A DNA stretch of 49,969 bases from Thermoplasmata archaeon (lineage in GTDB: Archaea; Thermoplasmatota; Thermoplasmata; Lutacidiplasmatales; UBA184). Location of the stretch: positions 1 through 49,969 of the forward strand of contig JAKIVS010000015.1 in the NCBI GenBank assembly GCA_022750435.1. Direction: 5' to 3'. Below are positions 8,354-25,971 of the stretch, one piece after another. The notes beneath the pieces were generated by a model, which saw nothing but the letters and a program-made list of their open reading frames with translations, was not told the DNA's origin and did not search any database. The position numbers and the translations under genes are program-made. The stretch's first letter is position 1. The number at the start of each line of letters is the position of its first letter.

Positions 8354-10446
8354 GCGACTGGTCCGTTCCGCACGAGGGCGTCTCGCTGACGAAGGGTCGA
8401 CTGACCCGTGCCGGGCTGATCTTGGCCACGCTCGCCCTCCTCGCGATCCTGATCGTTTCCTACGGTCCGGACAACGCGAACTCCGTCCACGTCGGACCCG
8501 CCCAAGTCGCGAGCTCGGGCGTCCGCACGGACTCGGCGCCGGCGGATTCGTCGTTCGGGGCGCTCACGCTCGGGGTCAGCGATTCCCCGGGGACGATCTG
8601 CGCCTACGACTTGGCGAGTTGCGCGGCGGGTGTGGGCGAGTCCCGAGTCACGCTGAGCGCGGACGCCGGAGGATCGGGCTTCCTCGCCTGGCCGAACGTC
8701 CAGGTCGCGTTCGTGATCGAAACGACGGACTACGACGGGGTGTACGACCCGAGCGCGGGCGACCCCGGAACCGACCCGTGCGTCGGGACCCAGGGATACC
8801 TCTGCGAGGAGTCGAACGGCGTTCCGTTCTTCGTGGCCCACGCGCAGGACATCGCCAACGCGATCTCGGCCGCGAACCCTCACAGCCACGTCTCGTTCGC
8901 GATGGTCGATTACTTCGCGAGCCTCGACCAGTTCGACGACGGCGACGGGGACGAGTACCACGTCGACATCCAGCAGTTCGTCCAGTCGCAGGACTTCGGG
9001 GCGACGGTCACCTCCACCTTCCAGGCGCAGGTCCTCGGCGGCGGCTACGTGTACAGCGACTCCGACATGTCGGACAACCAGCTCCACTCCTCCGTCATCA
9101 CCGCGATGTACGGCACGATCATCGGAAGCGGCCTCACCTGGTCGAACGACACCCACCACGTCATCGTCTGGATGGGGTCGACCTGCCCGCGGGACCCGAG
9201 CTGCATTGAGAACTACTGCGTCTCCGCGTCCGACTACGCGGGCGAGGCGGGATGCGCCCAGTCGCCCTCCTGCGAGCCCTCCTACCAGTTCCTCGACGGC
9301 TCGAGCCCCAAGTGCGAAGGCTGGGTCCGCAGCCAGGACGGCAACGTCAACGACTCGATCGCCCAGCTGGCGAAGACCGCTCCGTCGTGTACCGATTCGA
9401 TCGGGGGTGTGTGCACGGTCGATGCCATCGACCTGTGGACGACGCCGACCGACCCGCTCTCCAAGGGCTGGCCGACGGGACGCGCCAACGGTGGCCCGGG
9501 CGGGTCGGCCGTCGTTACGAACGTCCAGCACGTGCTCCTCGCGGGCTGCGACATCGCCGCGGCGACCGGAGGAACCTGGGACGGCCCGTCGTTCTTCACG
9601 TGCCCGAATGGGCAGGAAGGAACGCTCCAGTACGTCCCCCACGGTCCGGCGACCAAGCCGAACCTGAACAATCCCACGCTGTTGATCGCCTTCCGGGAGA
9701 TCGGCTTCGGCCCGGTGCTCGAGACCCAAGTGGCGGCCGGGAGCAACCGGCCGATCTTTACCTTCGTTCCGTTCGGCCACATCGCCTTCGCCCCGGACCT
9801 CCAACCGACCCAAGAGTGCCAGCGCCGCGGGATCGACCTGAAGGGCTGCGGCACTCCGAAGGAGTACCTGGAGAACGGAGTCCACTTCCTCGGGTGGAAC
9901 TGGAGCACGAACAAGTCCCAGAACACGATGTTCATCGGGGACAGTTGGACCGCCTCGTTCAACGTGATGGCGACCGGTGGTCCGTTCAGCACGGTGCCGC
10001 TGCATGCCTGCATCACGCCGGAGTGCAAGGCGGCCGGGAGCACCGCGGTCAACGGGTTCTACAGCTCGGCGAGCTTCGTGCCGTTCACGAACAACTCCAT
10101 CACGACGGAATCGTTCCCGCTCGCGCTGATCACGATCCAGTTGACACCGGCGCTGGGCCCAGCGACCGCCCCACCTCCCCCGCCGCCCCCAGCCCCGCCC
10201 GGGTTCCCGGTGGTGGCGCCGTCCGCCCTCCCGGTGGTCCAGCAGATTGGGATCGGCAACAACGTCGGCGTCGCGAACATCTCGCTCCAGGCCGCCTCGG
10301 CCGGCTTCCTCGGCGCGGGCTTCGTTCGCGTCCAGCTGAAGAACAAACCGGTCGCGATGCGTGTGGCGGCGAAGTCCGGAACCGTCAGCTCGAAGTTCGA
10401 CGCCGCCTCGAAGCAGGGCGGCGGCGGCGTGGGGCGATTCGAGTAA
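8350..10446 (+). CDS. secreted/anchored vWA-like protein, 698 aa
   Basis: Begins at a GTG overlapping the stop of the giant surface gene by 4 nt (GTGA), so the two are probably translationally coupled. Residues about 18-39 form a signal/anchor helix. Residues about 117-280 read like a von Willebrand A fold: VQVAFVIETTDYDG (strand 1 in a degenerate DxSxS context), SHVSFAMVDYFASLD (strand 2), a Tyr-rich DDGDGDEYHVDI segment, SSVITAMYGTIIGSG (helix) and THHVIVWMGST (strand). A Cys-rich insert follows (residues about 278-320) with several pairs, then a second domain and a Pro-rich linker (PPPPPPPAPPG). The C-terminus carries no clear membrane helix. The classical MIDAS is not intact, so metal-dependent binding is uncertain. 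Likely role: a partner of the giant surface protein, exposed outside the cell. Confidence 0.75.
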   Translation: MSDWSVPHEGVSLTKGRLTRAGLILATLALLAILIVSYGPDNANSVHVGPAQVASSGVRTDSAPADSSFGALTLGVSDSPGTICAYDLASCAAGVGESRVTLSADAGGSGFLAWPNVQVAFVIETTDYDGVYDPSAGDPGTDPCVGTQGYLCEESNGVPFFVAHAQDIANAISAANPHSHVSFAMVDYFASLDQFDDGDGDEYHVDIQQFVQSQDFGATVTSTFQAQVLGGGYVYSDSDMSDNQLHSSVITAMYGTIIGSGLTWSNDTHHVIVWMGSTCPRDPSCIENYCVSASDYAGEAGCAQSPSCEPSYQFLDGSSPKCEGWVRSQDGNVNDSIAQLAKTAPSCTDSIGGVCTVDAIDLWTTPTDPLSKGWPTGRANGGPGGSAVVTNVQHVLLAGCDIAAATGGTWDGPSFFTCPNGQEGTLQYVPHGPATKPNLNNPTLLIAFREIGFGPVLETQVAAGSNRPIFTFVPFGHIAFAPDLQPTQECQRRGIDLKGCGTPKEYLENGVHFLGWNWSTNKSQNTMFIGDSWTASFNVMATGGPFSTVPLHACITPECKAAGSTAVNGFYSSASFVPFTNNSITTESFPLALITIQLTPALGPATAPPPPPPPAPPGFPVVAPSALPVVQQIGIGNNVGVANISLQAASAGFLGAGFVRVQLKNKPVAMRVAAKSGTVSSKFDAASKQGGGGVGRFE

Positions 10447-10590: not shown

Positions 10591-10688
10591 CATGTATGGG
10601 ACCACCCCCTCGAGTGTCGCCCGTTTGTTCCCTCGCGACGCGCTCTCCGGGCGCGCGCTCGAAGTCCTTCGCACGGAGTGGTAACCCC

Positions 10689-12746
10689 ATGGTTCGCCGA
10701 CCGGCAGTCCGGGCGCAGTCCCATCGCCGCACGATTTGGACGACGGGAGCTGCCCTCGCGGCCCTCGCGCCGATGATCCTCCTCGCCTTCTATGGAGCGG
10801 GCACCTCGATGGCCGCGTCGCCCGCCGTGGCGGCCCCGGGGGGAGCGACCGTGGGGCATGCGACCCTCGCCGCCGCCGGTGCACCGACCCCCGCGGCGGC
10901 CCGCGCCGACGCCACGTCGCCCGCGGCGACGGCGCCGTTCAACCCGACGTGTGCGAAGATCGACACCACGGTGTGCATCTCCATCCAGAGCGCCACCGAG
11001 CCGAACATCATCCCACCCGCCGGCTCGTTCGTGTCCTCGGTGGAGCCGAACGCGTCGCTCGACATCCACCTGGTCATCAAGTCCCGTTTCTTCCTCAACG
11101 CGACCTCACCGCCGAAGAATGGCCCCGACTCCCCGATTGCGCTCAACGTGACGGGCGTGTTGTGGAACGGCGACCCGTACGACACCTACCTCGACGGAAA
11201 TGTCTGGCACGCCGACAACGGCTCCTGGTGGGCCGGGCCCCAGATCGTTCCGCAGAACCAGACCTACCCGTACTGGTACACCGTCACGATCGCGGCCAAG
11301 TCGAGCGGCGGCTCCCCGAACTTTTTCCCCGGGGAGACGGTCACCTGGTGGATCGAGCTGACACAGAACATCGCCAACACGACGTTCACCCACCACGAGG
11401 GTCCGCACTTCCAGTTCACCTATGGAGGTGCGTGGCCGTTCTCGCCCTACCAGGGATCCCAGCAATACTCGGGGCCGAACGCGACGTTCGCCGACGTGAA
11501 CGTCTCCGTCCACCCGCGCGCGCCGAATTGGAACGACACGGTGAAGGTGGTCGTCAACACGACCGCCGCCGATGCGTACCCGGTCAACGCGTCGATCGGC
11601 TCGGCCTCCGTCACCTTCCGGGAGACCTACAACTCCGTGACCGTCGCGAGCACCTCGTTCCCCTTCCCGGTCAACGTGACCGGCACGGTGGGAGCGGTCA
11701 CGACCTCCATTGTCATCCCGGCCGCCTACGCGCAGCTCGCGGGGGCGACCGTCTACTACTCGATCCTCGTCGCCGATACGGCCGGGGACCAGCTCCAGAC
11801 GCCGCAGTACACGTACACCGTCGGAGGGAACGGCTCGTTCCTCTCGGGGACGTTCACCGACGACCTCGGCATCACGAGCAGTCCCTCGGACGTGGCCGGC
11901 GCGGCGGGCGTCGCCGTGACTCTGGTCCCGGGCCAGGCGGTCAACGTCACGGTCACGAGCCTCAACCCCGGCGTGGCGATCAACGCCGCCCAGCTCGTGG
12001 AGTCGTTCAGTTACCCCGCAATCAACGAGCGGATCACCGTCAACATCCCCATGGTGCGGATCACCTCGACGATCTTCCGCGGGACCCTCCCGGGCACTCC
12101 GGTCGGATCGTTCGTGAACTTCACGGTCGACGCCTGGGACTTCGACCAGCACCAGCTGGTCTCCCCCGAGTTCTCCTACGTCACCCCGTCGTTCGCGGAG
12201 TACGACCCGTTCGTCCCGGGCAATGAGACGTTCTTCTACGTCTACGTCTACGACAACGGAACCCACGAGTGGGTCTCCGGCGCGACGGTGCAGGTGACGG
12301 GTCCGCACGGGTTCGTCAACTCGGTCTCGAACACGACCTACGGCGTCTCCTACCCGAACGCCTCCGCCGCCCCCTACACGCCGCTCCTGGTCTCCGCCAA
12401 CGAGACCTACCACATCTCGGTCCGGGACCTCGCGTTCGTCCCGGCGGTGGGCGGGACCCCCGAGTTCCTGAACGCCACCGTCGTGGCGTACCATAGCCTC
12501 ACGGCGCGCCAGACCCTGACGACCACCGCCAACTACTTCGTCGTCCAGGAAGGGAGCTCGATCCTGTTCTACCTCAACGGCACCGCCCCGCCGCCCGTTG
12601 TCTCTCCCCCGGCGTCGTCCGGCGGCATTCCCCTGCCGGCCCTGATCGGCCTGCTCGCGACGATCGGGACCGCCGTGCCCCTCTACTGGTGGTGGACCCA
12701 GATCCGGGCCCGGCGGAAGGAAGAGGAGAAGCGGGTGACCCTATGA
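10689..12746 (+). CDS. type I membrane surface protein with conserved basic C-terminal tail, 685 aa
   Basis: A probable exported protein: Arg-rich N-terminus, hydrophobic signal helix (ALAALAPMILLAFYGAGT), an Ala/Pro/Thr linker, then about 550 residues of beta-rich, sequon-rich ectodomain with a cysteine pair near its start. It ends with a transmembrane helix and the cytoplasmic tail RARRKEEEKRVTL. It resembles the next protein in overall plan, and the last 36 residues of the two align without gaps, sharing a mid-helix Pro and the end R-V/I-T-L. The start at 10689 has GGAG 10 nt upstream. A leaderless GTG at 10614 is the alternative. First gene of an apparent operon with the second surface protein (4-nt overlap) and the membrane AAA+ ATPase. 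The ectodomain family is not recognised. Confidence 0.8.
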   Translation: MVRRPAVRAQSHRRTIWTTGAALAALAPMILLAFYGAGTSMAASPAVAAPGGATVGHATLAAAGAPTPAAARADATSPAATAPFNPTCAKIDTTVCISIQSATEPNIIPPAGSFVSSVEPNASLDIHLVIKSRFFLNATSPPKNGPDSPIALNVTGVLWNGDPYDTYLDGNVWHADNGSWWAGPQIVPQNQTYPYWYTVTIAAKSSGGSPNFFPGETVTWWIELTQNIANTTFTHHEGPHFQFTYGGAWPFSPYQGSQQYSGPNATFADVNVSVHPRAPNWNDTVKVVVNTTAADAYPVNASIGSASVTFRETYNSVTVASTSFPFPVNVTGTVGAVTTSIVIPAAYAQLAGATVYYSILVADTAGDQLQTPQYTYTVGGNGSFLSGTFTDDLGITSSPSDVAGAAGVAVTLVPGQAVNVTVTSLNPGVAINAAQLVESFSYPAINERITVNIPMVRITSTIFRGTLPGTPVGSFVNFTVDAWDFDQHQLVSPEFSYVTPSFAEYDPFVPGNETFFYVYVYDNGTHEWVSGATVQVTGPHGFVNSVSNTTYGVSYPNASAAPYTPLLVSANETYHISVRDLAFVPAVGGTPEFLNATVVAYHSLTARQTLTTTANYFVVQEGSSILFYLNGTAPPPVVSPPASSGGIPLPALIGLLATIGTAVPLYWWWTQIRARRKEEEKRVTL

Positions 12747-14674
12747 GCCGCTTCCCCACGCGCGCGCTGATCGTGGTCCTCGCCGTCGTGGCGTTGCTCG
12801 CCGTCGGCCCCGTCGTCGGTGTCCTCGCGCTGGCGAGCCCCGCGACGCCGTCGGCTCCCTCGCTCGTGACGCATGCGGCCCCGACCCACGTGGCGGCCGC
12901 CGCTCCCGCCGCCCAGCCGCGTGCCGCCCCGTCCGCGGCGAGCTCCCCGGGCGCATCGGCCCCGGGAACCGTGTTCGGGTGCCCCACCCCGTCGAACCCG
13001 CCGAACTGGAAGAGCCTCACCTTCTTCAACGACGTCGAGGTGACGTTCTACGTCCCGAACACCCCGTCCCTCGACGGCAGCGCGTTCCAGACCGCCCCGT
13101 GCGGGAACACGATCCCGACCTACGTCCACGGCTTCTGGATGAACGTCACGACGAACGTCCCGATGGTCAATGCGATCGTCCAGATCTGGGGAACCACCTG
13201 GCCGAACGCCACGAACCCGCAGAACCCGATCTCGGGATTCGACCCGTCCCTGCCCGCGAACTTCTCGATGTACATCCCGCCGGGAGGCGCCCGGACCACC
13301 GCGACGTTCTACTTCGACGTCTACCGGTACTTCTGGCCCGGCTCCCAGGTGTACTTCAACCTCACGATCGAGTCCGCGAGCGCCACGCCGAGCACCGTGT
13401 ATTCGGCCCAGGACATCTGGGATGAGTTCAACTACTCCGGCTTGAAGGACAACTACACTTGGACGTTCGGGGTCGCCTCGGTCTGGGGGTCCACCGACTT
13501 CGCGAGCGACATCGCCGTGACAACGAGCCCGAACGTCATCGTCCCGCCGTTCTTCTGGCCGAACCGCAACCAGTCGATCGTCATCGAGCTCACCTCGCTC
13601 ACGATCACCAACGGGACGCTCCAGCCAATCCCGTTCGCGCGACTGAACATCGAAGAGAAGGCGGACAACGTCTCGGCGAACTACGCCGAGTCGTTCGGCC
13701 CGGCCAACTCGACCGTGATGACGGCGGTGGTGCCGGCGAATCCCGGGGCGAGCGCGAACTTCTCGGTCACCGCCTGGGTTCCCTGGGAGGGGGGCACCAT
13801 CGACCGGATCGATAGTCCGCAGTATTCGTTCAACTGGACGGGCAACGGGGGGTGGTGGTACCCGGCGTACGGCGTCGTCGGCAACCTCCAGTACAGCACC
13901 TCGCCGAACGTGCTCAACTCCGGAACCACGAAGACGACCCTCCCGACCGGCACGTCCGTCAACGTGACCATCGCCTCTACCATCGAGAACGTCACGCTGG
14001 GGCCCGCGCAGGTCCACTTCCAGTACACCGACGCCGCGGGGACGACGGGCGGGGCGATCACGATGACCCCCGTGAGCCCGAACGCCTCCTTCGCGGTGAT
14101 CCCCGGGCTCCCGTCCGGCGGGTCGATCACGTTCTACGTCGTCGCGAAGGACATCTTCGGGACGCCGATCGCGTCCGGGAACTCGACTTACTCGGAGTCC
14201 GGCGCCCCGCAGCCTGGGCCCGGTGGACTGGTCCTCACTCCCGGGTTCGGACTGTTCTTCTTCGAGGCGGTCGACCTCTCGACCGGCCAACTGGTGCCGT
14301 TCCTCAACTTCACCCTCTCGAACACCACGTGGTCCGAGGTCCGACAAGGAACGGCCCTCGGCTTCGCGGCGCCGACGCCGCTCTCCGGCCCCGGGTTCCT
14401 CCCGGTGACGTACGGAGTCTACGTGATCACGATCCACGCGTTCGGGGAGACGGAGACCGCGACGGTGAGCGTCAGCACGACCACCCCATTCGGGGTCGTC
14501 TTCTACGTCGCCTCGGGGTCGGTCACCCAGAACACCTGGGTCCCCCAGACCACGCTCACGATCCCCGCCGTCGTGGGACTGATCGGCGCCTCCCTCGCCA
14601 TGTGGCCGATCGGGAACTGGTTCCGGGAGCGCCGCCGGAAGGCCGAGCAGGAACAGAGGCGCATCACGCTGTAA
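12743..14674 (+). CDS. type I membrane surface protein, relative of the preceding gene, 643 aa
   Basis: Starts at an ATG overlapping the upstream stop (ATGA), which implies coupled translation. Residues 8-32 form a clear signal helix. An Ala/Pro-rich linker follows, then a beta-rich ectodomain rich in aromatic residues and N-x-T/S sequons, with a cysteine pair near the start (FGCPTPSNPPNW and APCGNTIP). A membrane helix near residues 610-628 and the tail RERRRKAEQEQRRITL end it. Its last 36 residues align ungapped with the previous protein, and the middle of both ectodomains shows similar module order, so the pair probably arose by duplication and diverged. The AAA+ gene starts 18 nt downstream. 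Neither protein has recognisable catalytic residues. A role as substrate, anchor or partner of the AAA+ protein is inferred from position and tail conservation only. Confidence 0.8.
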   Translation: MSRFPTRALIVVLAVVALLAVGPVVGVLALASPATPSAPSLVTHAAPTHVAAAAPAAQPRAAPSAASSPGASAPGTVFGCPTPSNPPNWKSLTFFNDVEVTFYVPNTPSLDGSAFQTAPCGNTIPTYVHGFWMNVTTNVPMVNAIVQIWGTTWPNATNPQNPISGFDPSLPANFSMYIPPGGARTTATFYFDVYRYFWPGSQVYFNLTIESASATPSTVYSAQDIWDEFNYSGLKDNYTWTFGVASVWGSTDFASDIAVTTSPNVIVPPFFWPNRNQSIVIELTSLTITNGTLQPIPFARLNIEEKADNVSANYAESFGPANSTVMTAVVPANPGASANFSVTAWVPWEGGTIDRIDSPQYSFNWTGNGGWWYPAYGVVGNLQYSTSPNVLNSGTTKTTLPTGTSVNVTIASTIENVTLGPAQVHFQYTDAAGTTGGAITMTPVSPNASFAVIPGLPSGGSITFYVVAKDIFGTPIASGNSTYSESGAPQPGPGGLVLTPGFGLFFFEAVDLSTGQLVPFLNFTLSNTTWSEVRQGTALGFAAPTPLSGPGFLPVTYGVYVITIHAFGETETATVSVSTTTPFGVVFYVASGSVTQNTWVPQTTLTIPAVVGLIGASLAMWPIGNWFRERRRKAEQEQRRITL

Positions 14675-14692: not shown

Positions 14693-17600
14693 ATGGCAAC
14701 ACCCAGCACCAAGGTCACGAGCACGCCGACTCCGGCACCGGCGACCGCCCCCACGGGGACGGCGCCGAAGACGGCCCCGACGCCCGTCAAGGCGCCCGCG
14801 GCGGCGACCCGAAAGGTCGCCCCGGCGGCGAGCCAGACGGCGATCAAGCCCGCGACGAAGACCGGGGCTCCGGCGATCCGGGCGCCCCCGAAGGCGCCGG
14901 CGAAGGGCCCCCCGAGGGCGCCCGCGCGCAAGACCGGTCAACGGGCGATGTGGATCCTTCTGCTCATCGGCATCGTCCTCGTCGCGACCGGCGCGGGACT
15001 CCTGGTCGGGTTCTACCCCTACGTGGTCCACGCTCAGACGGCGAGCGAGTTCCTGCAGAACGCGCACGCGGTCCAGTCGAGCAACAAGGCGGTCAACTTC
15101 GTCGCCCTCACTGGCGGCGGGTACTCCGCGGGCCAGACCGTCGTGATCAAGGACACGGTTCGGTCCGTCGCCTACAACTCCTCGACGCAAACCACCGTGC
15201 TCACGTTCGCCTCGATCGGGAACCTCCCCACCAGTCAACGTTCGTCGGAGACGACGCTCGCGAACAGTCTGTTCGCGACGTTCTCCGGGCAGCTGAACTG
15301 GGTCGGGAGCGGGACCCCCGTCGTCCTGACGTTCACCATCGTCCGGCAGCAACTGCCCGGCGGACCGTACGGAACCGCGGGCTACCTGACGCTTGACGGC
15401 GCGGCGGACGCCACCAACCACGCGATTCAAAACGGCCTCGGCGGCGCCCAGTCGGTCGCGATCGGTCAGCAGTACATCCAGTACGGACCGCCCGCCCCGC
15501 TCTACGACGACCTGTTCGCCTTCATCACCGCGGTGGGGCTCGCCTGCCTCGCCCTCGTCGTCCTCTCGTGGGCGAACATCTTCCCCGCGACAGCGAAGGT
15601 CGAGCGCTGGTTCGTCCGCCAGACGAAGGACCCGAAGCACCTGACGGCCCTCCTGATGGCCACGACCGCGTTGCTCGGCGGATTCTTCCTGCCGTTCTAC
15701 CCATGGCCCGTGGTCCTGCTCATCGCGGCCGGGGTCGGCTTCCTGGCCTGGAGGTTCCCGCAACTCTCGCTGCTCGTCCTCATCCTCCTCGTGGCGCCGG
15801 AGGTCGGATATCAGTCGGGTACGCTCGGTCTGATCTTCCTGTTCGCGGCGATCCCCGTGCTGTTCGCCTCCCTGATCGACTGGAGGTTCGGGATCGGTGC
15901 GTTCCTCACGCTGTTCCTGGCGCCGCTCGGGCTGTCGTTCGTGATCCCGGTGTTCCTCGCGATGATCTTCTCGCTGTACATCGGGCTCGCGGTCGCCGTC
16001 GCAGGAGGTCTCCTGATCTCGCTGTTCGTCACGCTCGGCAACCTGCCGATCCTCGGCTACCTGGCGGGACCGGGGGCGAACGGTACACCGAGCCTGATCG
16101 CCGGCCATGCGGCCGCGTTGCAACCGACCCTACCGTTCCCGTACTTCACGTTCAACGCGATCGGGTCGGCGTACATCAACATGCTCAGCCCGAACACGCA
16201 GGTGCTGTCGCTCGGCGGCCAGGGATTCGGATTGATTGCGATCCCGATCGTCGAGATCGCCGCGTGGTGCTTTGCGGCCTGGTTGGTCACTTGGGCCCTG
16301 CGCGAGCGGGAGCACCAGACCCCGGAGCGCCTGCTGCAATACTCGGTCGCGAGCGGCGGCGTCCTCGCCGCCGTGACGTTCGGCGCCTTCTGGGCGTTCA
16401 ACTACGTCGGATGGTGGGACGTCGTCGTCCTCTTGTTCGTCCCCGCGATGGTGACGGCCGCGGCGGGCTCGCTGGTCATCCGGGACGCCTTCGAGGCGTA
16501 CTTCACGAGCCGTCTCGGCGGGACCGGCGTCGGAACGCGGGTCGCCGAGATGAAGGGCCTTCAGAAGACGACGTTCGAGATGGTCGGCGGACTCCACGAC
16601 GTGAAGGCCGACATCAAGGAATCGATGATCATTCCGCTGATGCGGAAGGACGTCACGACCCGCTTCAAGCTCGAGCCGCCGAAGGGGATCCTATTGTTCG
16701 GGCCCCCGGGCTGCGGCAAGACGATGCTGATGAAGGCGCTCGCGAGCGAGCTCGGCGTCGAGATGATCTCGATCAAGTGCTCGGATCTGATGAGCAAGTG
16801 GTACGGAGAGTCGGAGAACCGCGTCGCGGAACTTCTCCGGACGGCGCGCGAGCGCGCCCCGTGCATCCTGTTCATGGACGAGATCGACTCGGTGGCGAAG
16901 CGCCGCGACATGTACACGGCGGACGACGTCACCCCCCGTCTCCTCTCGATCCTGCTGTCGGAGATGGACGGCATCGACAAGTCGGCGGGCGTCATCGTCG
17001 TCGGCTCGACGAACAAGCCCGACCTGATCGACCCGGCGCTGATGCGCCCGGGCCGCCTCGACAAGATCATCTACGTCCCGCCGCCCGACTTCAACGAGCG
17101 GATGGAGATCGTCCACGTGCACCTGGTCGGACGACCGGTCGCGCAGGACATCGACCTCGCCGAGATCGCGAAGAAGACCGAGCGCTACAGTGGGGCCGAC
17201 CTCGCGAACCTCGTACGGGAAGGCGCGACGATCGCCGTCCGGCGTGAGATGATGACCGGCGTGCGCAGCCCGATCGCGATGGACGACTTCCGCCAGGTCC
17301 TCCCGAGGATCAAGCCGTCCATCAGCCTGCGGATGATCTCGGACTACGAGGTCATGAAGCTCGACTACGAGCGGAAGATGCACCAGGTCCAGCGGACGGA
17401 GCGCAAGATCATCGTCCGGTGGGACGACGTCGGTGGCCTCAGCGAGGTCAAGCAGGCGATCCGGGAGTACGTCGAACTCCCGCTCACCCGGCCGGAGCTC
17501 ATGGAGAGCTACAAGATCAAGACCGGTCGGGGGATCCTCCTGTTCGGCCCGCCGGGCTGCGGCAAGACCCACATCATGCGGGCGGCCGCCAACGAGCTCA

Positions 17601-18346
17601 ACGTGCCGATGCAGATCGTCAACGGCCCCGAGCTCGTGAGCGCCTTGGCGGGGCAGTCGGAAGCCGCGGTCCGGGACGTTCTCTACCGCGCCCGTGAGAA
17701 CGCGCCGTCGATCGTCTTCTTCGACGAGATCGATGCGTTGGCGAGCAAGGACTCGATGAAGACCCCCGAGGTGTCGCGTGCGGTCAGCCAGTTCCTGACG
17801 GAGATGGACGGCCTGCGCCCGAAGGACAAGGTCATCATCATCGCCACCACGAACCGGCCGCAGACGCTCGACCCCGCGTTGCTCCGCCCGGGACGGTTCG
17901 ATAAGATCTTCTACGTCCCGCCCCCCGACCTCTCCGCCCGCCAGGACATCTTCCGGATCCACCTGAAGGGAGTCCCGGTCGAAGGCTCGGTCGACTACGG
18001 GAAGCTCGCCGGCATGACCGACGGATTCTCCGGCGCCGACATCGCGAGCGTCGTCGACGATGCGAAGCTGATCGCGCTGCGCGAGCAGCTCGTCACCGAG
18101 ACGAAGGACGCGCAGACGCGCGGCGGCGGGTTCGGACTGTTCCAGGCCGGCACGACGGGCGCCCCCCACATGGGAAGCGGCGTGGCCGCCGGGACCCCCG
18201 GAGCGAAGATGGAGGTCGTCAGCAAGGTCGTCGGCGTCCGGATGGACAACCTGCTCGAGGCCGTCAACAAGACCAAGTCGTCGATCACCCCGGAGACCTT
18301 GGCGTGGGCCGAGGAGTTCATCCGGTCGTACGGGACGCGGGGATAG
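14693..18346 (+). CDS. membrane-integrated Cdc48-like tandem AAA+ ATPase, 1217 aa
   Basis: An unusual fusion. Residues 1-82 are Ala/Pro/Thr/Lys-rich and disordered-looking. A first membrane helix (about 87-109) is followed by a 160-residue segment, presumably outside (about 112-268), and then about eight to ten hydrophobic helices between 272 and 598. The C-terminal half has two AAA+ modules of the Cdc48/VAT/p97 type: Walker A GPPGCGKT at 670-677 and 952-959, Walker B with D729-E730 and D1011-E1012, and the RPGR-L/F-DK box in both. The pore-loop position reads KWYG (702-705) in the first module and ALAG (984-987) in the second. The soluble Cdc48 N-domain is absent and replaced by the membrane part. 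Both ATPase sites look intact. Likely activity: ATP-driven pulling or unfolding of proteins at the membrane. It follows two tail-anchored surface proteins by 18 nt and precedes a small membrane protein. A soluble VAT is presumably encoded elsewhere, which cannot be seen here. Confidence 0.9.
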   Translation: MATPSTKVTSTPTPAPATAPTGTAPKTAPTPVKAPAAATRKVAPAASQTAIKPATKTGAPAIRAPPKAPAKGPPRAPARKTGQRAMWILLLIGIVLVATGAGLLVGFYPYVVHAQTASEFLQNAHAVQSSNKAVNFVALTGGGYSAGQTVVIKDTVRSVAYNSSTQTTVLTFASIGNLPTSQRSSETTLANSLFATFSGQLNWVGSGTPVVLTFTIVRQQLPGGPYGTAGYLTLDGAADATNHAIQNGLGGAQSVAIGQQYIQYGPPAPLYDDLFAFITAVGLACLALVVLSWANIFPATAKVERWFVRQTKDPKHLTALLMATTALLGGFFLPFYPWPVVLLIAAGVGFLAWRFPQLSLLVLILLVAPEVGYQSGTLGLIFLFAAIPVLFASLIDWRFGIGAFLTLFLAPLGLSFVIPVFLAMIFSLYIGLAVAVAGGLLISLFVTLGNLPILGYLAGPGANGTPSLIAGHAAALQPTLPFPYFTFNAIGSAYINMLSPNTQVLSLGGQGFGLIAIPIVEIAAWCFAAWLVTWALREREHQTPERLLQYSVASGGVLAAVTFGAFWAFNYVGWWDVVVLLFVPAMVTAAAGSLVIRDAFEAYFTSRLGGTGVGTRVAEMKGLQKTTFEMVGGLHDVKADIKESMIIPLMRKDVTTRFKLEPPKGILLFGPPGCGKTMLMKALASELGVEMISIKCSDLMSKWYGESENRVAELLRTARERAPCILFMDEIDSVAKRRDMYTADDVTPRLLSILLSEMDGIDKSAGVIVVGSTNKPDLIDPALMRPGRLDKIIYVPPPDFNERMEIVHVHLVGRPVAQDIDLAEIAKKTERYSGADLANLVREGATIAVRREMMTGVRSPIAMDDFRQVLPRIKPSISLRMISDYEVMKLDYERKMHQVQRTERKIIVRWDDVGGLSEVKQAIREYVELPLTRPELMESYKIKTGRGILLFGPPGCGKTHIMRAAANELNVPMQIVNGPELVSALAGQSEAAVRDVLYRARENAPSIVFFDEIDALASKDSMKTPEVSRAVSQFLTEMDGLRPKDKVIIIATTNRPQTLDPALLRPGRFDKIFYVPPPDLSARQDIFRIHLKGVPVEGSVDYGKLAGMTDGFSGADIASVVDDAKLIALREQLVTETKDAQTRGGGFGLFQAGTTGAPHMGSGVAAGTPGAKMEVVSKVVGVRMDNLLEAVNKTKSSITPETLAWAEEFIRSYGTRG

Positions 18347-18442: not shown

Positions 18443-18775
18443 ATGGCGGAGCCCGAGCCGACCCGCTCCCGCCTCGACCTCACGACGTGGGCCGGCATCG
18501 GGATCGTCGGTCTCCTGGTCTTCCTGGTCGGCGTCTACCAGCCGATCTGGGCCCACGTCAAGTACGGACCGTGGATTTCGATCGCCGTCGCGATCGTCGG
18601 CGGGATCGTCGTCGCCATCGGCTTCGGGTACGCCTACGACGCCCGCGAAGAGTCGTTGCACCCGACCCGACGGCCTCCCCCGGAGGACCCGGACGCCGGG
18701 TCGATCCGGGCCGCCCCGAGCTTCGAGATCTACCGGCCGGGCGAGGACGACGTTCCCGAATCGGAGAAGCGCTAA
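18443..18775 (+). CDS. small two-helix membrane protein, 110 aa
   Basis: Not a recognised family. A short charged N-terminus is followed by two hydrophobic helices (about 16-36 and 44-64) separated by a loop containing HVKYGPW, and then a hydrophilic, acidic C-terminal tail of about 45 residues ending EDDVPESEKR. It starts at an ATG preceded by GGGAGCGGT, 96 nt after the AAA+ gene, with no TATA box seen between, so it may be the last gene of that operon. The gap is GC-rich with a G-run (18352-18359). An accessory subunit of the AAA+ complex is possible from position only. Confidence 0.65.
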   Translation: MAEPEPTRSRLDLTTWAGIGIVGLLVFLVGVYQPIWAHVKYGPWISIAVAIVGGIVVAIGFGYAYDAREESLHPTRRPPPEDPDAGSIRAAPSFEIYRPGEDDVPESEKR

Positions 18776-18826: not shown

Positions 18827-21800
18827 ATGACGGCGAGGAGTCTCCGCCCCGGGTGGGTGGCGTTTGCGATCGTGGGCATCTGCCTCCTTCTGGCCGTTCC
18901 CACGCAGTGGTCGACGGCCGGGACGACCAACGCCGCCCTTCCCGTTGGGCCTTCCCACGCCGCGAAGACGACCGCCGCCGCCCATCCCGCGGTGTTCCAA
19001 TGCCCCAATCCCCCCCTCGGATACGGCTCCGTGTCCGGTTTCCTGCCTCCGACCCCGGTCCAAGCCGGACAGACCTGTCCGGGCCCCATCGTCGAGGACA
19101 CGATCCATGGGTCGTTCTCCTCGAACGTTCCGGGGTCGGGGGAACGCTGGAAGGAAGCGATCTACCTCCCCGCGAACGGCACACCGGGCCAGCCGTTCGA
19201 GTACAGTGACGTCTTCCTCGGCATGGTGGTCTCGGGGGACCCGAGCTCGCTGTACCGCCAGTCGTACGCCCAGGTGATCTTCACCCCGTCGTCGGCCGGC
19301 CCGAACACGACCGTGACCTGGGGCGTCTCCGCCGCGGTCTGGGCGATGCACAACGAGACCGCCGGGGGCGCCTGCTCCGATTCGATGACGTTCGTCTGGA
19401 ACTGGAGCTTCTGGTGCATTCAGAACATGATCCAGAACGGCGCCGGGCTCGTCGGGCCGACTGGCCTCGCGGGCGGAACCTGGTTCAACGTCACCTTCGA
19501 CGGCCAGATCGGCCAGAGCTCCGGCATGACGGTCTGGGCCAACGACTCGACCAACTTCACGGGGAATTTCTCCTTCCAGCTCAACAACACGACCACGGGG
19601 GCGGTCGCCTACGAGCCGTTCTTCAACGACTCGTGCAACGACCTCTGCTTCCTCAATTGGTCGTATCCGTTCGGACTCGGGATCGGATGGGACATTTGCC
19701 CCGACGGCTCCCCGCCGTTCGCCGCGTGCGACACCTACAACCAGACCGTCTGGGACGGCGCGAACCCAGTCGAGTTCGGGCCCCCGGAGTTCTGGGTGAA
19801 CGCGAGCGCCGGGTATGGCGGTGACTACCAGTACTTCGCCCCGATGTCGGCGTCGGGGGAGTGCAGTTCAAGCGCGGTGGTCGCGGTCGCCTCCTGCAAC
19901 AACTACAATGCGTTCGGCGGGACCGGGTTCTATCCGTTCTTCAGCTGGAACGGCTCGCTCCTCAACTTCGGGGACGAGTATCCGTGGACTGTCAACGACA
20001 TGGGTGGGGAGTACACCGAGTACTTCCAGACCGGGCCGGTGCAGCACGACATCGTGCCCCTCTTCCTCGAACGGTTCAGCAACGACAGCCACGGGGGGTA
20101 CGTCGAGCCGAACACGGCGCTCAACGTCTCCACGACCGTGTCGGACCTCGGCGTCGTCCGCTCGGTCCAGTTGACCTATTCGCTCAACTCGGCGACGTCG
20201 ATCACCGTCCCGATGCCCCTGATGGCCGGGACGACCCAGCGTGGCACCTACAACGGGACGGTGCCTACGGGGGCGAACGGCTGGATCAACTTCACGGTCA
20301 CCGCGACGAACAACGCCTCCATGAACGACACCGAGCACGGGACCGTCTATCGCGGCCCGCTGCCGCACTTCTCCGTCGTCGTGGACACGCAGCCGCAGTC
20401 GTGCACAACGGCGACGGTGAACGGGACGCTCGTCCACAACGGGACGACCCTCTCGCTCACCCCGGGGACGTACCCGGTCACCAGCAGCTCGTGCTACCCG
20501 TACGAGTTCGGGAAGTGGCTGACTTCGGCCGGCCTCCGGGTGGCGAACGCGAGCTCCATCTCCTCGAACCTGACGGTGACGCGGCCCGGCACGGTCACCG
20601 CGAACTGGACCTACGTCCGGCCCGACGTGACCGTCACCTTCGTGACCGCTCCCACCACCCCGTGCGGAACGGTCGAGATCGCCAACCAGACCTACGGCCA
20701 GGGATTCTCCTCGGTCGCGAGCATCCTCTACGGGCTCCCGGCGAACCTCTCCGTCCCGACCGGCTGCGCCGGTGAGAGCTTCGCGGGGTGGACGTTCGTC
20801 GGGAACTTCACGATCCTCGGCACCACCCTGATCGCCGGCGGAAACGGCACGCTGACGGCGAACTTCGTCTCCTCGTCCACCGGTAGCACGCTCAGCTTCT
20901 TCACCGACCCCGCCACGTGCGGGGGGGTCCTGTATCGTGGCGCCGGCTACACCGGCGGCGAGCGGCTGACGGTCAACGCGACCCCCTACGCGGTCGCCCC
21001 GCTCCCCTGCGCCCACTACGGGTTCCAGCAGTTCGACACCACGGGGGGCGCGACCGTGACGAACGGGAACCTCACCGTGACGTCGGCCGGCTCGATCGAG
21101 GAGTTGAACTTCGTACTGACGGAGGTCACCCTGCTGATGTTCCCGGGCTCGTGCTCGGTGCTGTTCGACGGGGTCCGGTACGGCAACGACACGGTCCTCG
21201 TGGTCGCCAACAACTCGACTCACACCATCACGCAGAACGCGTGCCCCGGCTACTATCCGTTCAGCATCACCCCGACGCTCGGCCTCAGCCTCTATGGGGA
21301 CCTACTGACGGTGAACACCTCCGGGACCGTCCTCGCGAACTGGCTGTTCGGCTCCTCCTCGCAGTTCCTCGAGTTCCAGACCGACCCGGGCAACTGCGGC
21401 ACCATCTCGTTCGGCGGCGGAACCTGGTCGAACACCAACTACACGAACGTCCCCCAGAACGCGACGGGCCCGATCTCGGCCCACCCGTGCGCGAACTACG
21501 GGTTCGTCCGCTGGGTCCCCTCGCCCGGCCTCCAGATCTCGAACGGGATCGCGTACATCAACGCGAGCGGGTCGATCCTCGCCGTCTTCCGACCGATCGC
21601 CCCGGTCGCGATCCAGACCACGCCGTCGAACTGCGGAACCGTCTCGGTGAACGGGGTCGCGTACGCGTCGAACTCGACGGCGATCTTGACCGAGGATTTT
21701 CCGTACCCGATCACGCCGCTCCCGTGCGCGCACTACTCGTTCGTCGATTGGAGCGACACCGTCGGCGCGACGATCGTCAACGGCACGCTCTACCTGGCGT

Positions 21801-22567
21801 CCGAGGCGATCCTGACGGCGAATTTCGCCCCCACCCCGTACATCGTCCAGGTCCACATCGACCCGGGGACGTGCGGCTCGCTGTACGTGAACGGCATCTC
21901 CGAGACGAACGGGACGAACGTGACGCTCCCCTTTGGGACCTACCCGCTCCGGGCGGCGCCCTGCCTTGGGAATCTCCTGGTGGGGTACAACGGCACGGGC
22001 GGAGTCCAGGTCATCGGCACTTCGAGCATCACCGTCGGCGCGAACGGCACTCTCAACGCGACCTACCGACCGGTCCCCCCGTCCGTCACCTTGAGCGTCC
22101 CCTCGAGCTCCTTCGCGGGCGACATCGTGACGCTCGCGGCGACGGTCGCCGTGCTGGTGCCTCCGTACACCTACAACTACAGCTGGACGTTCGGCGACGG
22201 GTCGAGCGCGACCACGCCGGCGAACTTCACCGCGCACACGTACAACCAGCCCGGGACCTACACGGTCACCGTCGTGGTCCACGACCCGTACGGACGGAAC
22301 GCGACGACGTCGGGCACCATCCAGGTGGTGGCCTCCTCGGCGACTTCCTCGCTCGCCATCCCGACCTCCACGTCGATCATCCTCGGGATCGTCGTCGTGG
22401 CCGTCGTGGCGCTGCTCGCCGTAGCGTTCTGGCGCCGCCGACCCCCCACCGCGGCGCCGATGGAATCCGCCGCCCCGTACGATGAGGGCACGCCGGACGA
22501 CGCCGTGTATCTCCCGTCCGGAGCCGACGGGACCGACGCTTCCACTCCCTCCGGAGACCAAGCATGA
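18827..22567 (+). CDS. surface protein with seven Cys-paired repeats and a PKD domain, 1246 aa
   Basis: A type I surface protein. Signal helix at about residues 10-28. Residues about 45-430 form an aromatic, sequon-rich domain with several Cys pairs and the phrase FGGTGFYPFF near 362. A seven-copy repeat array spans about 515-1084. A PKD domain follows, with the hallmark WTFGDGSS near residue 1118 and an HTYNQPGTYTVTVVV strand. A C-terminal helix (about 1180-1203) and an RRR stop-transfer with an acidic tail end it. The first domain resembles that of the 1123-aa protein downstream, where FGGTGAYP falls at almost the same residue. The start codon is fixed by a TATA box 30 nt upstream. The stop overlaps the next ATG (ATGA). 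No catalytic site is recognised; adhesion or S-layer-like function is likely. Confidence 0.8.
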   Translation: MTARSLRPGWVAFAIVGICLLLAVPTQWSTAGTTNAALPVGPSHAAKTTAAAHPAVFQCPNPPLGYGSVSGFLPPTPVQAGQTCPGPIVEDTIHGSFSSNVPGSGERWKEAIYLPANGTPGQPFEYSDVFLGMVVSGDPSSLYRQSYAQVIFTPSSAGPNTTVTWGVSAAVWAMHNETAGGACSDSMTFVWNWSFWCIQNMIQNGAGLVGPTGLAGGTWFNVTFDGQIGQSSGMTVWANDSTNFTGNFSFQLNNTTTGAVAYEPFFNDSCNDLCFLNWSYPFGLGIGWDICPDGSPPFAACDTYNQTVWDGANPVEFGPPEFWVNASAGYGGDYQYFAPMSASGECSSSAVVAVASCNNYNAFGGTGFYPFFSWNGSLLNFGDEYPWTVNDMGGEYTEYFQTGPVQHDIVPLFLERFSNDSHGGYVEPNTALNVSTTVSDLGVVRSVQLTYSLNSATSITVPMPLMAGTTQRGTYNGTVPTGANGWINFTVTATNNASMNDTEHGTVYRGPLPHFSVVVDTQPQSCTTATVNGTLVHNGTTLSLTPGTYPVTSSSCYPYEFGKWLTSAGLRVANASSISSNLTVTRPGTVTANWTYVRPDVTVTFVTAPTTPCGTVEIANQTYGQGFSSVASILYGLPANLSVPTGCAGESFAGWTFVGNFTILGTTLIAGGNGTLTANFVSSSTGSTLSFFTDPATCGGVLYRGAGYTGGERLTVNATPYAVAPLPCAHYGFQQFDTTGGATVTNGNLTVTSAGSIEELNFVLTEVTLLMFPGSCSVLFDGVRYGNDTVLVVANNSTHTITQNACPGYYPFSITPTLGLSLYGDLLTVNTSGTVLANWLFGSSSQFLEFQTDPGNCGTISFGGGTWSNTNYTNVPQNATGPISAHPCANYGFVRWVPSPGLQISNGIAYINASGSILAVFRPIAPVAIQTTPSNCGTVSVNGVAYASNSTAILTEDFPYPITPLPCAHYSFVDWSDTVGATIVNGTLYLASEAILTANFAPTPYIVQVHIDPGTCGSLYVNGISETNGTNVTLPFGTYPLRAAPCLGNLLVGYNGTGGVQVIGTSSITVGANGTLNATYRPVPPSVTLSVPSSSFAGDIVTLAATVAVLVPPYTYNYSWTFGDGSSATTPANFTAHTYNQPGTYTVTVVVHDPYGRNATTSGTIQVVASSATSSLAIPTSTSIILGIVVVAVVALLAVAFWRRRPPTAAPMESAAPYDEGTPDDAVYLPSGADGTDASTPSGDQA
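20369..22080 (+). repeat. seven tandem ~80-residue protein repeats with a Cys pair
   Basis: Seven copies within the preceding protein. Each begins with a strand and C-G-T/S-V-x-x-N-G, has a second Cys about 30-35 residues later in a P-x-P-C-A-x-Y-x-F context, and ends G-x-I/L-x-A-N/T-F/W/Y. The paired cysteines probably form one disulfide per repeat. The copies are diverged, so they are old. The layout recalls bacterial InlB-B/Flg_new-type repeats but is longer. Confidence 0.7.
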
Positions 22568-25500
22568 CAAGCCTCAAATACCGAGAACCAACGATGAACG
22601 CAACCCCCATGACCGACGGTGCAACCCCCATGAGCCAGACCACCCGCCGACCTCCTCGTCCTCTCCGGCTGGCCACGCTGATGGCGGTCGCCATCGCGTT
22701 CCTGATGGCCGTCCCGTTCGGGGCGCTCGCGACCTCGGGCGTCCTCTCGTCCTCCCCCTCGGCGGCCACCGTTGTCCACGCGCCCGTGGTTCGGACGGCC
22801 CCCACGTCGATCTCGACGACGAGCTTCGCCGCGCGGCTCCTGGCGAGCCCGGCAGTCTCTCCGTCCTTCCTTGGTCTGACCGAAAGCGCGCGGCTCGCGG
22901 ACGCCGCGTTCGGCGTCGGTGGCCAGGCGGCACTCTCCCACCCCGAGGCCCCCGCTCCGCAGGCGCTCGCCGGGAACACCTACCTCAACGACCCGTGCTC
23001 GACCACCTCGACGGTGGCGGCGGTCAACGGCACGAACTCGACCCTCCTCGCCGGCGTGAGCTCGGAATACCTCCTGTTCAACGCGTCCGGCGGCTCGTAC
23101 TGCAGCACCGTCTCGGAGTCCCCGCTCCTCACCGTCAACGGGCTCGTCGAAGCGGAGCGCTCCACCGACGGAGGGCAGACCTGGACGCCCAGCTGGATCC
23201 CCCAGAACGCCAGCTGGACCAAGATCTCCAGCCCGCTGTTCGACTCCATTCCGGGAATGTTCTACCCGTACTCCGGCGATGGCCCTGCCTTTGCGTCGCC
23301 CTCGGTGGCCGCCGCGAACGACGGTACGGTCCTCCTTTCGACCCAGTTCATGCCCGGCTGCTGGATCTCCGGTTGCACGAATGCGACCGGTGAGCAGAGC
23401 CCGGCAGGGATCGCCATCGCGCGGTCCGTGAACGGCGGGGCGTCGTGGGTCAACACGACCGTCGTCGAGAACAAGACCTACTTCCAGTGGATCAACACCG
23501 GTGCCACCTGCACGGCGGCGGGACTCGGCTCGGGGTTCTACCCGGTCAACGTCCCGATGTCGCCGTACCTGGCGATCAACCCGGTGACGGACGCGGCCGT
23601 CGCGACCTGGGAGAACTTCCACGTCCTGATTGACGTTACGAACTGCACCGCGAGCATCTCCGGCACGATCCAGGCGTCCAACTCGCTGAACGGCGGACTC
23701 TCCTGGTCGGCTCCCCAGAACGTCTCGGGCCAGCTCGCCTTCGACCCCCGCGTGGCGATCGGTCCGGCGCCCGCCTACCCGGTGAGCATCGTCTACGAGA
23801 ACTGGCTCAACGCGACCCAGGACAGCAGCTCCGGTGCGCTCGCGGTCAACTGGGCCGTCGCGACCTCCACCGACAACGGGACGACCTGGGGCGCGCCGCT
23901 CCAGACCGCCAGCTCGCCCAACGTCAACCTCCTGTGGCGCGGGGACTCCTCGCCCGACTCGTTCTTCACCTCGGACAACCCGTTCGGGCTGTACACTCCG
24001 AGCCAGGGTAGCCTCGCGTTCGACTCCTGGGCGAGCTCGACCCACGAGGGGAACGAGTACCTCGTCTGGAGCGACAACCAGACCGTCGGATCGACCGACC
24101 AGGGCTACCCGGCGATCGCCTTCGAGGAGCGCGCCTCCGGTAGCCCCGGCTGGACCGGAACCTCGTTTATCACCCCGGCCACGAAGTCGACCGTGTACTT
24201 CCAGCCGTCCGTCTCCGTCGCGCCAGACGGGACCCTCTGGGTCACGTTCTACGGCGAGAGCAAGTCGTCGGGTGACCTGAACATGTTCGCCGTCTACTCG
24301 ACGAACGGCGGAACGACGTGGTCGACGATGTCCGAGATCACGAGCTCCTTTGGCATCCTCGCGAACGGCCTCCTCTCCATCGGCGACTACACCGGCTCGG
24401 TGGCGACCTCCGCCGGAACCTACGTGACCTGGATGGACTGCCGCTCCGTCAGCTGCACGGACTCCTTCAACGAGTCGACGATGGTGACCCTCGTGGAGCC
24501 GGTCGCGCTGACGACCTCCGCGTCGGGGATCACGCTGACGGTGACGACCAACGGTGTCGCCTCGGCGGTGTCCCTGCCCGGGGCCGTCCCCTGGGCCATC
24601 GGGACCGCGCACACCGTCGCGGCGCCCGGGTGGCTTCCGTACAACGCGACGTACGTGGAGACGTTCCACAACTTCACCGGCGCGGTGAACAGCACGGCGT
24701 TCTCGACGACGTTCACCTACACGGGCGGCTCGAGCCTGGTGACGAACTACGCGTTCGTCCCGGGTTCGTTCCTCGCGGGGTTCTTCACGCCGAACACGAC
24801 GTTCGACCAGCTGACGATCGACGGGTTCAGCGTGCCGCTGCACCCGTGGAACGCCACCGCGCTGTCGTACAACTATTCGGTCGCGAGCGGCCGGTCGTAC
24901 TACCTGAACGCCTCGGCGTCCCGGTTCTACCTCCCGCTCGTGAACCAGATCCTTGGCACGACCGCCGGGGCCGTGACGTCGTTCAACGTGGACCTCGCGA
25001 AGACCCACGGCTGGCTGATCGGGCGCGTCACGCCGACGAACGCGACCCTGCTGATCAACGGCACGCCGGTCGTGGTCGATGCCCAGAACGGCGTCTACAA
25101 CACGAGCGCGTTCTGGGGCTCGTACTGGGTGAACGCGAGTGGGTACGGTGTGACGAACTTCAGCCAGTACGTCACCGTGACACCGGACCAGTCGACGACG
25201 ACGAACATCGTCCTCTCGGGCGGATGGATCCGAGGCGCGCTGATCAACAGCTACCCGGGGATCTCGATCAAGCTCGACGGCGTGGCGATCTCGAACCTCG
25301 TGGGTGCGACGTTCAACGACTCCACGCTCGGCGGTGCCCACCAGATCGTCGCAACGGCGACCGGGTACAACACCTCGACGATCAACGTCACGGTCGTCCC
25401 AGGACACACCAGCGTCGTCTCCGTGAACCTGACGAACCAGGGAACGGTCATCGGGTCGATTTCGCCGGTCGCCGCCCTGAAGGTGGCGACCCTGAGCGTG

Positions 25501-25971
25501 ACCAACCTGAGCCACCTGGGCGGAGGACACGAGCCGATCGATACCACGACCGGCATCTTCCGGGTCAACGTCACCGGTGACGCGTACTGGACCGTCACCG
25601 TCGCCGCGACCGGCTACGTGACGTTCACCCAGAACGTCCTCGTGACGCCCGGCGAACTGACCGCACCCGTGAGCGTGACTCTCACCCTCGCCAAGAACAG
25701 CACGGTCCCGCCCTGCAACCTGAACAACTCGTGCTCGGTCGTGACCCCCTCGGGGTCCTCCGGACCTTCGATCGCGCTGATCGGCGGCATCATCGTGGTC
25801 GTGGTGGTCGTGGCGGCGGTGGCGGCGGTCGTCCTCATGCGGCGCCGAGGTGGCGGCGGTGGCGGCGACGGCTCGACGCCTCCCGAGGGCACCATGGGCG
25901 GCCCGACGGACGCGAGCGGCGAGGCCACGTATGGGGAGGGCACCTACGGCGCTCCTCCTCCGGCGGAATAG
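22564..25971 (+). CDS. surface protein with Asp-box (sialidase-like) propeller and PEGA-like domains, 1135 aa
   Basis: Signal helix at about residues 34-58, after a Thr/Arg-rich start. Five Asp-box motifs of the S-x-D/N-x-G-x-T/S-W type are visible: STDGGQTW (200), SVNGGASW (288), SLNGGLSW (374), STDNGTTW (435) and STNGGTTW (579). This predicts a BNR/sialidase-like beta-propeller across about 130-650. I did not find a convincing Arg triad with Tyr/Glu, so sialidase activity is unproved. The next 450 residues contain PEGA-like modules (for example TLLINGTPVVVDAQNGVY). A helix at about 1064-1088 and an RRR plus Gly/Pro-rich tail end it. The start is an ATG overlapping the upstream stop (ATGA). 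Later in-frame ATGs at 22594, 22609 and 22630 are alternatives. Possible roles are glycan binding or adhesion. Confidence 0.8.
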   Translation: MTSLKYREPTMNATPMTDGATPMSQTTRRPPRPLRLATLMAVAIAFLMAVPFGALATSGVLSSSPSAATVVHAPVVRTAPTSISTTSFAARLLASPAVSPSFLGLTESARLADAAFGVGGQAALSHPEAPAPQALAGNTYLNDPCSTTSTVAAVNGTNSTLLAGVSSEYLLFNASGGSYCSTVSESPLLTVNGLVEAERSTDGGQTWTPSWIPQNASWTKISSPLFDSIPGMFYPYSGDGPAFASPSVAAANDGTVLLSTQFMPGCWISGCTNATGEQSPAGIAIARSVNGGASWVNTTVVENKTYFQWINTGATCTAAGLGSGFYPVNVPMSPYLAINPVTDAAVATWENFHVLIDVTNCTASISGTIQASNSLNGGLSWSAPQNVSGQLAFDPRVAIGPAPAYPVSIVYENWLNATQDSSSGALAVNWAVATSTDNGTTWGAPLQTASSPNVNLLWRGDSSPDSFFTSDNPFGLYTPSQGSLAFDSWASSTHEGNEYLVWSDNQTVGSTDQGYPAIAFEERASGSPGWTGTSFITPATKSTVYFQPSVSVAPDGTLWVTFYGESKSSGDLNMFAVYSTNGGTTWSTMSEITSSFGILANGLLSIGDYTGSVATSAGTYVTWMDCRSVSCTDSFNESTMVTLVEPVALTTSASGITLTVTTNGVASAVSLPGAVPWAIGTAHTVAAPGWLPYNATYVETFHNFTGAVNSTAFSTTFTYTGGSSLVTNYAFVPGSFLAGFFTPNTTFDQLTIDGFSVPLHPWNATALSYNYSVASGRSYYLNASASRFYLPLVNQILGTTAGAVTSFNVDLAKTHGWLIGRVTPTNATLLINGTPVVVDAQNGVYNTSAFWGSYWVNASGYGVTNFSQYVTVTPDQSTTTNIVLSGGWIRGALINSYPGISIKLDGVAISNLVGATFNDSTLGGAHQIVATATGYNTSTINVTVVPGHTSVVSVNLTNQGTVIGSISPVAALKVATLSVTNLSHLGGGHEPIDTTTGIFRVNVTGDAYWTVTVAATGYVTFTQNVLVTPGELTAPVSVTLTLAKNSTVPPCNLNNSCSVVTPSGSSGPSIALIGGIIVVVVVVAAVAAVVLMRRRGGGGGGDGSTPPEGTMGGPTDASGEATYGEGTYGAPPPAE

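Follow-up and report, generated by a model that had tools for sequence, protein, structure and literature searches.

The membrane-bound AAA+ machines known to us are tethered by one or two helices. For the Cdc48 family, a family survey gives Cdc48 as the sole member present in archaea (PMC5070193). A predicted archaeal secretion or remodelling complex, arCOG01314, is described as uniting a MoxR/GvpN AAA ATPase with vWA, immunoglobulin (Ig)-like and S-layer proteins (PMC5898192). Here we analysed a 49,969-nucleotide stretch of DNA (hereafter the window; GenBank assembly GCA_022750435.1, contig JAKIVS010000015.1, our contig C4 in its entirety) from the 1.92-Mb, 28-contig, 84% complete genome of a Thermoplasmata archaeon of the Lutacidiplasmatales, and in particular a gene for a membrane-integrated tandem AAA+ ATPase within it. 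This gene seems to be part of an undescribed family and probably remodels the surface proteins of its operon from the inside.

The gene is a single frame of 1217 residues with a disordered N-terminus, one helix, an outside domain of about 160 residues, further helices and two intact AAA+ modules, as a first-pass annotation of the DNA had read it. The three stretches tested have a third-position GC of 0.91, 0.92 and 0.94, which makes a single coding frame across the membrane and AAA halves likely. Furthermore, the fusion of membrane core and AAA is common to 41 distinct complete open reading frames (ORFs), that of the window among them, which span at least two classes of Thermoplasmatota; these were retained from 130 core-bearing ORFs in the fetched loci, many of them duplicate or cut, as distinct and stop-bounded on both sides. 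With this even codon bias and the recurrent fusion, the two parts are truly one gene. Pfam detected two AAA modules (PF00004, 286.8 bits with a cut-off of 21.2) and AAA_lid_3 (89.2 bits, cut-off 27.2); the Walker A sequence GPPGCGKT stands at residues 670 and 952 and the Walker B sequences ILFMDE and IVFFDE at residues 725 and 1007. Since the first module (D1) carries SKWYGES and the second (D2) SALAGQS, it is the module nearer the membrane that has the aromatic pore loop.

Hydropathy peaks mark two transmembrane helices (TM1, TM2) and then a run of helices within about residues 317-597. The AlphaFold models, with a predicted local distance difference test score of 77.6 for residues 81-634 and 77.3 for the core alone, are weaker in the final part of the core. 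In 30 sequences the mean number of lysines plus arginines was 3.9, 1.0, 1.0, 2.7 and 4.4 in the segments presumed inside and 0, 0, 0.5 and 0 in those presumed outside, with segment borders set by eye after viewing the structure model. The alternating loop charges and the models are consistent with an eight-helix core and AAA modules inside, and the predicted topology that fits comprises two helices followed by a core of eight helices and one re-entrant stretch, both protein ends being cytosolic. Hydropathy, AlphaFold, charge pattern and Pfam thus bear out a polytopic membrane part joined to two complete AAA+ modules.

No Pfam match, and hence none to the Cdc48 N-terminal substrate domain, was obtained for residues 1-621 or for the window core at a maximum E of 10, a setting under which the HMMER filters still discard most matches above about E 0.1, and other cores gave only sub-threshold DUF matches, in two of the three tested. 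Foldseek searches with both models (residues 81-634; core alone) found no match at E ≤ 0.001, and a profile search of PDB sequences with the core found nothing at E ≤ 10, so a known membrane fold was rejected as an identity for the core. For the membrane core, then, no known family was found by sequence or by predicted structure, and the titles and abstract openings of the open-licence literature searched do not describe the fusion. The outside domain weakly resembles OB-folds such as SSB, with a non-significant best E of 0.38, too weak to claim that identity.

The first-pass annotation also took the protein for a Cdc48 with its N-domain replaced, and this did not hold. The best NCBIfam model was CDC48, at 544.4 bits and thus under its cut-off of 802.65; the best 25 of 56 NCBIfam matches were led by CDC48, PAN and FtsH, contained no MoxR and had GvpN near their bottom (E 9.4e-7). 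A tree of 67 rows placed the D1 rows of the family in one clade (99/98), apart from Cdc48 D1, Cdc48 D2, PAN-like rows and a single row that we take to be FtsH-like and that joined the PAN-like rows; a 398-residue protein from genome G443 adjoined the D1 clade (87/70). The D2 rows fell outside the Cdc48 clades too, several on long branches, and forms with one AAA module, found in seven of the 41 ORFs, were among the earliest branches of the D1 clade and grouped together with little support (80/16). Elsewhere the host genome encodes a two-module AAA protein of 844 residues and a one-module protein of 424 residues, which from their motifs are presumably Cdc48-like and PAN-like, respectively. The separate D1 clade, the sub-cut-off score, the single-AAA forms and the separate Cdc48-like protein of the host all argue against a Cdc48 with a swapped N-domain, and the window protein is best seen, by its sequence, as a separate branch of the classical AAA ATPases.

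A search with residues 1-621 found matches in 26 of 101 genomes, the host's own counted, and the closest relative found (G037) was 81% identical over these residues. The core profile (A1) matched 61 of 400 genomes of the class, or 59 after the weak matches in G211 and G239 (E 3e-4 and 3e-5, in that order) were dropped, and 30 of 389 genomes of the phylum, a set overlapping the former, with 12 outside the host's class and G239 again weak. A single-motif scan of 84,980 species genomes gave 37 matches, including 30 relatives titled Thermoplasmata, Euryarchaeota, Methanomassiliicoccales, Proteinoplasmatales or Lutacidiplasma archaea; having recovered no single-AAA members, it says nothing firm on the range outside Thermoplasmatota. 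A viral origin and a role as a defence system were both considered and dropped: A1 yielded 11 pattern matches and no relative in viral contigs, and the 15 PADLOC matches to defence systems (IetA, TRIP13, others) all lay inside the AAA modules, with none in the three operon partners scanned.

All 41 ORFs contain the core, at least one AAA module, and a D1 with the pore loop S-K/R-WYGES. One AAA module is present in seven ORFs and two in 34; among the latter, D2 has GKT and DE in 20 and is off-consensus in 14, though L122 and L134 deviate solely by DD for DE, L122 also having GKS, a usual Walker A ending. Walker B of D1 reads DD instead of DE in nine of the 41 (L039, L040, L043, L122, L123, L124, L125, L133, L134), each with an off-consensus D2. 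The window protein and its Lutacidiplasmatales relatives within the set of 41 have both AAA modules intact and two helices with an outside domain of their own before the core, while other lineages have at that position either nothing or an Ig-like ectodomain. The constant unit is the membrane core plus D1, and the outside domain and D2 vary; what is conserved is not the window protein's outside domain. This natural series (one ring, two with an off-consensus second, two intact) makes the roles of D1 and D2 comparable. Two genomes, G110 (L118, L119) and G124 (L120, L121), each hold two paralogous systems, one with a fused ectodomain and off-consensus D2, the other with a separate ectodomain and intact D2; the separate ectodomain was seen in G110, the sequence upstream of L121 being too short. 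The AAA proteins of L119 and L121 carry in their N-terminal part, ahead of the core, a CxxC...CxxC stretch that by eye resembles a zinc ribbon; in other members this position is occupied by an ectodomain or is empty. In L036 and L037 the C-terminus is extended by what we take to be a SAP motif, and both genes have what are presumably dnaG and lonB nearby.

The homologues share not only the fusion but also conserved surface-gene neighbours, foremost an Ig-like ectodomain protein. It is encoded separately upstream of the AAA gene in 27 of the 41 loci, whereas in 12 it forms the N-terminal part of the AAA protein itself; the two loci left are L121, with 203 bases upstream, and L122, whose ectodomain match overlaps the stop-to-stop frame and was therefore excluded by the filter. 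Profiles of the fused, separate and Lutacidiplasmatales ectodomains recover one another: the fused-set profile finds the E2 protein of L119 at 6.5e-79, and the E2 profile finds all ten fused ectodomains in the set. Fusion in some loci, separation in others and mutual recovery by profile constitute a Rosetta-stone link to the AAA protein, and the series makes the role of the ectodomain testable by comparison. At E ≤ 1e-10, with at most three candidates scored per genome, the ectodomain profile matched 58 of the 400 class genomes; the core was in 59 and both in 56. Core without ectodomain occurred in three genomes whose core sits at a contig edge or close to one (G012, G022 and G038), and ectodomain without core in G023 and G027. 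The co-occurrence has a Fisher p of 4e-62, a value that ignores shared ancestry and, for the fused lineages, has the link built in.

The two ectodomain proteins of the window, E1 and E2, also share a private C-terminal tail. E1 proteins end in R-[VI]-[TS]-[LV] in 15 of 16 cases and E2 proteins in 11 of 12, both exceptions being in L119. A degenerate DNA pattern for E-x-x-R-[IV]-T-L-stop matched the 1.92-Mb genome exactly twice, in E1 and E2, and the control gave 0. In 15 further genomes there were 15 matches in nine genomes, of which 13 shared a contig with the AAA gene and lay not far from it; the other two were in G050, on a contig apart from that of the AAA gene, which there runs to the contig edge. 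The pattern was absent from five core-less genomes of the same genus (G028, G001, G040, G002, G051), and it had 0 matches in G061, whose two proteins end in RITV. Within the window, E1 and E2 are 30% identical over the last 20 residues and 27.6% over the remainder. Tail identity is hardly above that of the rest, and it is therefore the end motif, with its uniqueness, that carries the argument from the tail, not conservation of the tail as a whole.

The recurring gene order is vWA-type protein, Ig-like ectodomain proteins, AAA, small transmembrane (TM) protein and giant surface proteins, and in the window the operon genes overlap or nearly so (Table 1). Thus the inferred start of S overlaps the stop of the upstream giant gene (GTGA) and that of E2 overlaps the stop codon of E1 (ATGA). 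Giant surface proteins flank the AAA gene not only in the window but also in several of the other loci. A small TM protein follows the AAA gene in 39 of the 41 loci, its position being kept while its family varies by lineage; the misses are L069, without downstream sequence, and L135, where none was found in 8.7 kb downstream. The small protein of the window, sB, has no detectable relationship to sA or sC.

Table 1. Features of the AAA+ ATPase gene and its operon in the window (aa, amino acid positions).
Feature	Coordinates	Strand	Basis
Giant surface protein, carboxypeptidase-regulatory-like repeats	2135..8353	+	
S, Lutacidiplasmatales relative of the vWA-type partner, C-terminal TM, tail end VGRFE	8350..10446	+	
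E1, Ig-like ectodomain protein, E2 paralogue, tail end KRVTL	10596..12746	+	
E2, Ig-like ectodomain protein, C-terminal TM, tail end RRITL	12743..14674	+	
Membrane-integrated tandem AAA+ ATPase gene	14693..18346	+	ATG-started single ORF, 1217 aa
Disordered basic Pro/Ala-rich N-terminus (aa 1-84), predicted cytosolic	14693..14944	+	sequence; basic residues precede TM1
TM1, about aa 88-106	14954..15010	+	hydropathy; AlphaFold model
Predicted outside domain, about aa 107-270, mixed beta/alpha	15011..15502	+	model
TM2, about aa 274-292	15512..15568	+	hydropathy; AlphaFold model
Conserved polytopic membrane core, ~320 aa, predicted 8 TM and re-entrant stretch	15617..16573	+	
First AAA module (D1), both Walker motifs intact, with aromatic pore loop	16574..17419	+	
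D1 pore loop SKWYGES	16793..16813	+	S-K/R-WYGES in 41/41 ORFs
AAA module D2, intact in window, SALAGQS replaces aromatic pore loop	17420..18343	+	
sB, small two-TM protein downstream of AAA gene	18443..18775	+	
Giant surface protein with PKD domain	18827..22567	+	
Large surface protein, start overlaps preceding stop	22564..25971	+	
Large surface protein with PKD domains, module membership uncertain	26026..29457	+	

An sC-type homologue lies upstream of the operon on the opposite strand (1567-2025, -); in other lineages an sC-type protein follows the AAA gene, a place taken here by sB. The surface-protein cluster is followed by an Orc1/Cdc6-type gene (30142-31611, +), and a gene for a radical SAM protein with an HMPTM-type zinc ribbon (48997-49969, +) runs to the contig end.

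The vWA-type partner is called V, and its Lutacidiplasmatales relative S. Pfam VWA was detected in two of four V and none of two S proteins scanned, and the metal-site motif DxSxS in seven of 15 V and none of five S proteins; the S protein of the window has no recognisable vWA model or metal site. S is linked to V by profile, in the window through its C-terminal part, and is itself at most a putative vWA-fold protein. The V/S profile matched 84 of the 400 class genomes and 55 of the 59 with the core. The host genome also carries unlinked S paralogues on its contig C28 (L172:7082-9196, -; L173:9410-11620, +). The VGRFE-end pattern has two matches in this genome, S and an unlinked S paralogue, and the VGRFE-ending paralogue at L172 could be a partner in trans.

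From the computed fusion, its conservation, the ATPase motifs of the window, the operon, the ectodomain in its fused and separate forms, the co-occurrence, the private tail and the lack of the protease and proteasome-docking motifs searched for, we tentatively favour, at a little short of an even chance, an AAA+ remodelling motor that is integrated in the membrane, bears an Ig crown and acts on surface-protein tails without degrading them. Six copies would assemble into a cytosolic double ring, with D1 beside the membrane and D2 beneath, joined to a ring that the polytopic cores make up, and on the outer side the Ig-like ectodomain proteins (E1 and E2 here, motor-fused elsewhere) may build a crown. 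Through its aromatic loop, the D1 pore would grip the cytosolic tail of a partner surface protein and pull; the likeliest partner would be either the vWA-type protein (in the window, S) or the operon's large surface proteins with a C-terminal anchor. Pulling might thereby disassemble, reset or recycle the surface complex without degradation. The extraction or insertion role proposed at first pass is compatible with the data, and the operon context narrows it to surface-protein complexes. If true, a ring motor integrated with at least eight helices and linked genetically to a set of surface proteins would be a new coupling of cytosolic ATP use to the cell surface. More ambitiously, and with clear doubt on our part, the AAA+ ring, the new polytopic fold and the Ig crown could define a class of transmembrane machine in which ATP controls outside vWA-type adhesin complexes; it would then be, just as speculatively, an archaeal counterpart of inside-out adhesion control, of a class undescribed in Thermoplasmatota.

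Several observations weigh against this remodelling motor. The computation identified no substrate. E1 and E2 were initially thought to be substrates, an idea dropped because proteins whose ectodomain also occurs fused to the motor are more probably its subunits than its substrates, and the private tail is therefore no proof of threading. The distribution of the system is patchy, the genus of the window included. With the aspartate in Walker B of D1 (9/41) and the off-consensus D2 (14/34), strong ATPase activity is doubtful in some lineages. Moreover, V or S was found upstream within 6 kb in only 29 of the 41 loci; seven of the 12 misses had 3.7-8.9 kb upstream and the remaining five under 2 kb. 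Relatives of V/S also occur in 29 of the 341 genomes without the core, and the vWA-type partner is hence wider than the system.

Other roles for the same ring were weighed on this evidence. It is unlikely that the giant operon proteins are exported, or assembled at the surface, by the motor via or beside the core, although such proteins flank the gene in the window and several other loci and the component list resembles that of arCOG01314, a different gene set for which a role of this kind has been proposed (PMC5898192): the flanking proteins examined start with hydrophobic stretches that by eye are signal-like, so that general export is seemingly provided elsewhere, and the core model has no significant match to a solved fold. 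A signalling or force device, in which ATP cycles would reshape the Ig crown and the outside vWA protein and so toggle adhesion, much as AAA+ and metal-site vWA proteins work in pairs elsewhere, we also hold to be improbable. The metal-site motif in seven of 15 V proteins, the motor-fused ectodomain of 12 of 41 ORFs and a polytopic core that joins ring to outside would suit such a device, but none of the five Lutacidiplasmatales S proteins has the motif, and the aromatic pore loop in 41 of 41 ORFs suggests polypeptide threading rather than shape change alone. Still less probable is membrane-protein quality control by an FtsH- or Cdc48-like dislocase feeding the proteasome or another protease. 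The AAA modules are of the FtsH/PAN/Cdc48 type, and in G077 and G087 the gene is near what is presumably lonB; however, the zinc protease motif HExxH and a C-terminal Hb-Y-X both occur in none of the 41 ORFs (the Cdc48-like protein of the host ends in IYG), on which grounds a protease and a proteasome partner, respectively, were rejected, and patchy presence with a tight surface-gene link is ill-suited to general housekeeping. Finally, two genes joined by an assembly or frame error can be dismissed almost entirely, as the codon bias is uniform, the identical fusion recurs in the 41 distinct complete ORFs from many assemblies, and no support for such an artefact was found.

Compared with the known systems, the remodelling motor resembles Cdc48/VAT (p97) in its two tandem classical AAA modules and in its top NCBIfam and PDB sequence matches, and differs from it by a membrane core in place of the N-domain, a D1 clade of its own, a score below the cut-off, the lack of Hb-Y-X and, in the window, an aromatic pore loop in D1 and not in D2. 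With FtsH the protein shares a membrane-anchored AAA ring and an outside domain, whereas its core is polytopic where FtsH has one or two helices, HExxH is missing from all 41 ORFs and 34 of them have two AAA modules. Msp1/ATAD1 is likewise a membrane-tethered AAA acting on membrane proteins from the cytosol, but with one helix, one AAA module and no surface operon. The arCOG01314 system has in common an AAA ATPase, a vWA protein, and Ig-like and large surface proteins (PMC5898192); its AAA is however described as of the MoxR/GvpN type (COG0714) and not a classical-clade AAA on a membrane core, and its gene set as given there differs from the window operon. Of its traits, a vWA protein beside the AAA gene was found for some lineages, and S of the window is at most a putative vWA protein. 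Judged from sequence, the membrane-integrated ATPase is a real and conserved variant of membrane AAA+ machines, neither Cdc48 nor FtsH, for which the proposed mechanism is plausible.

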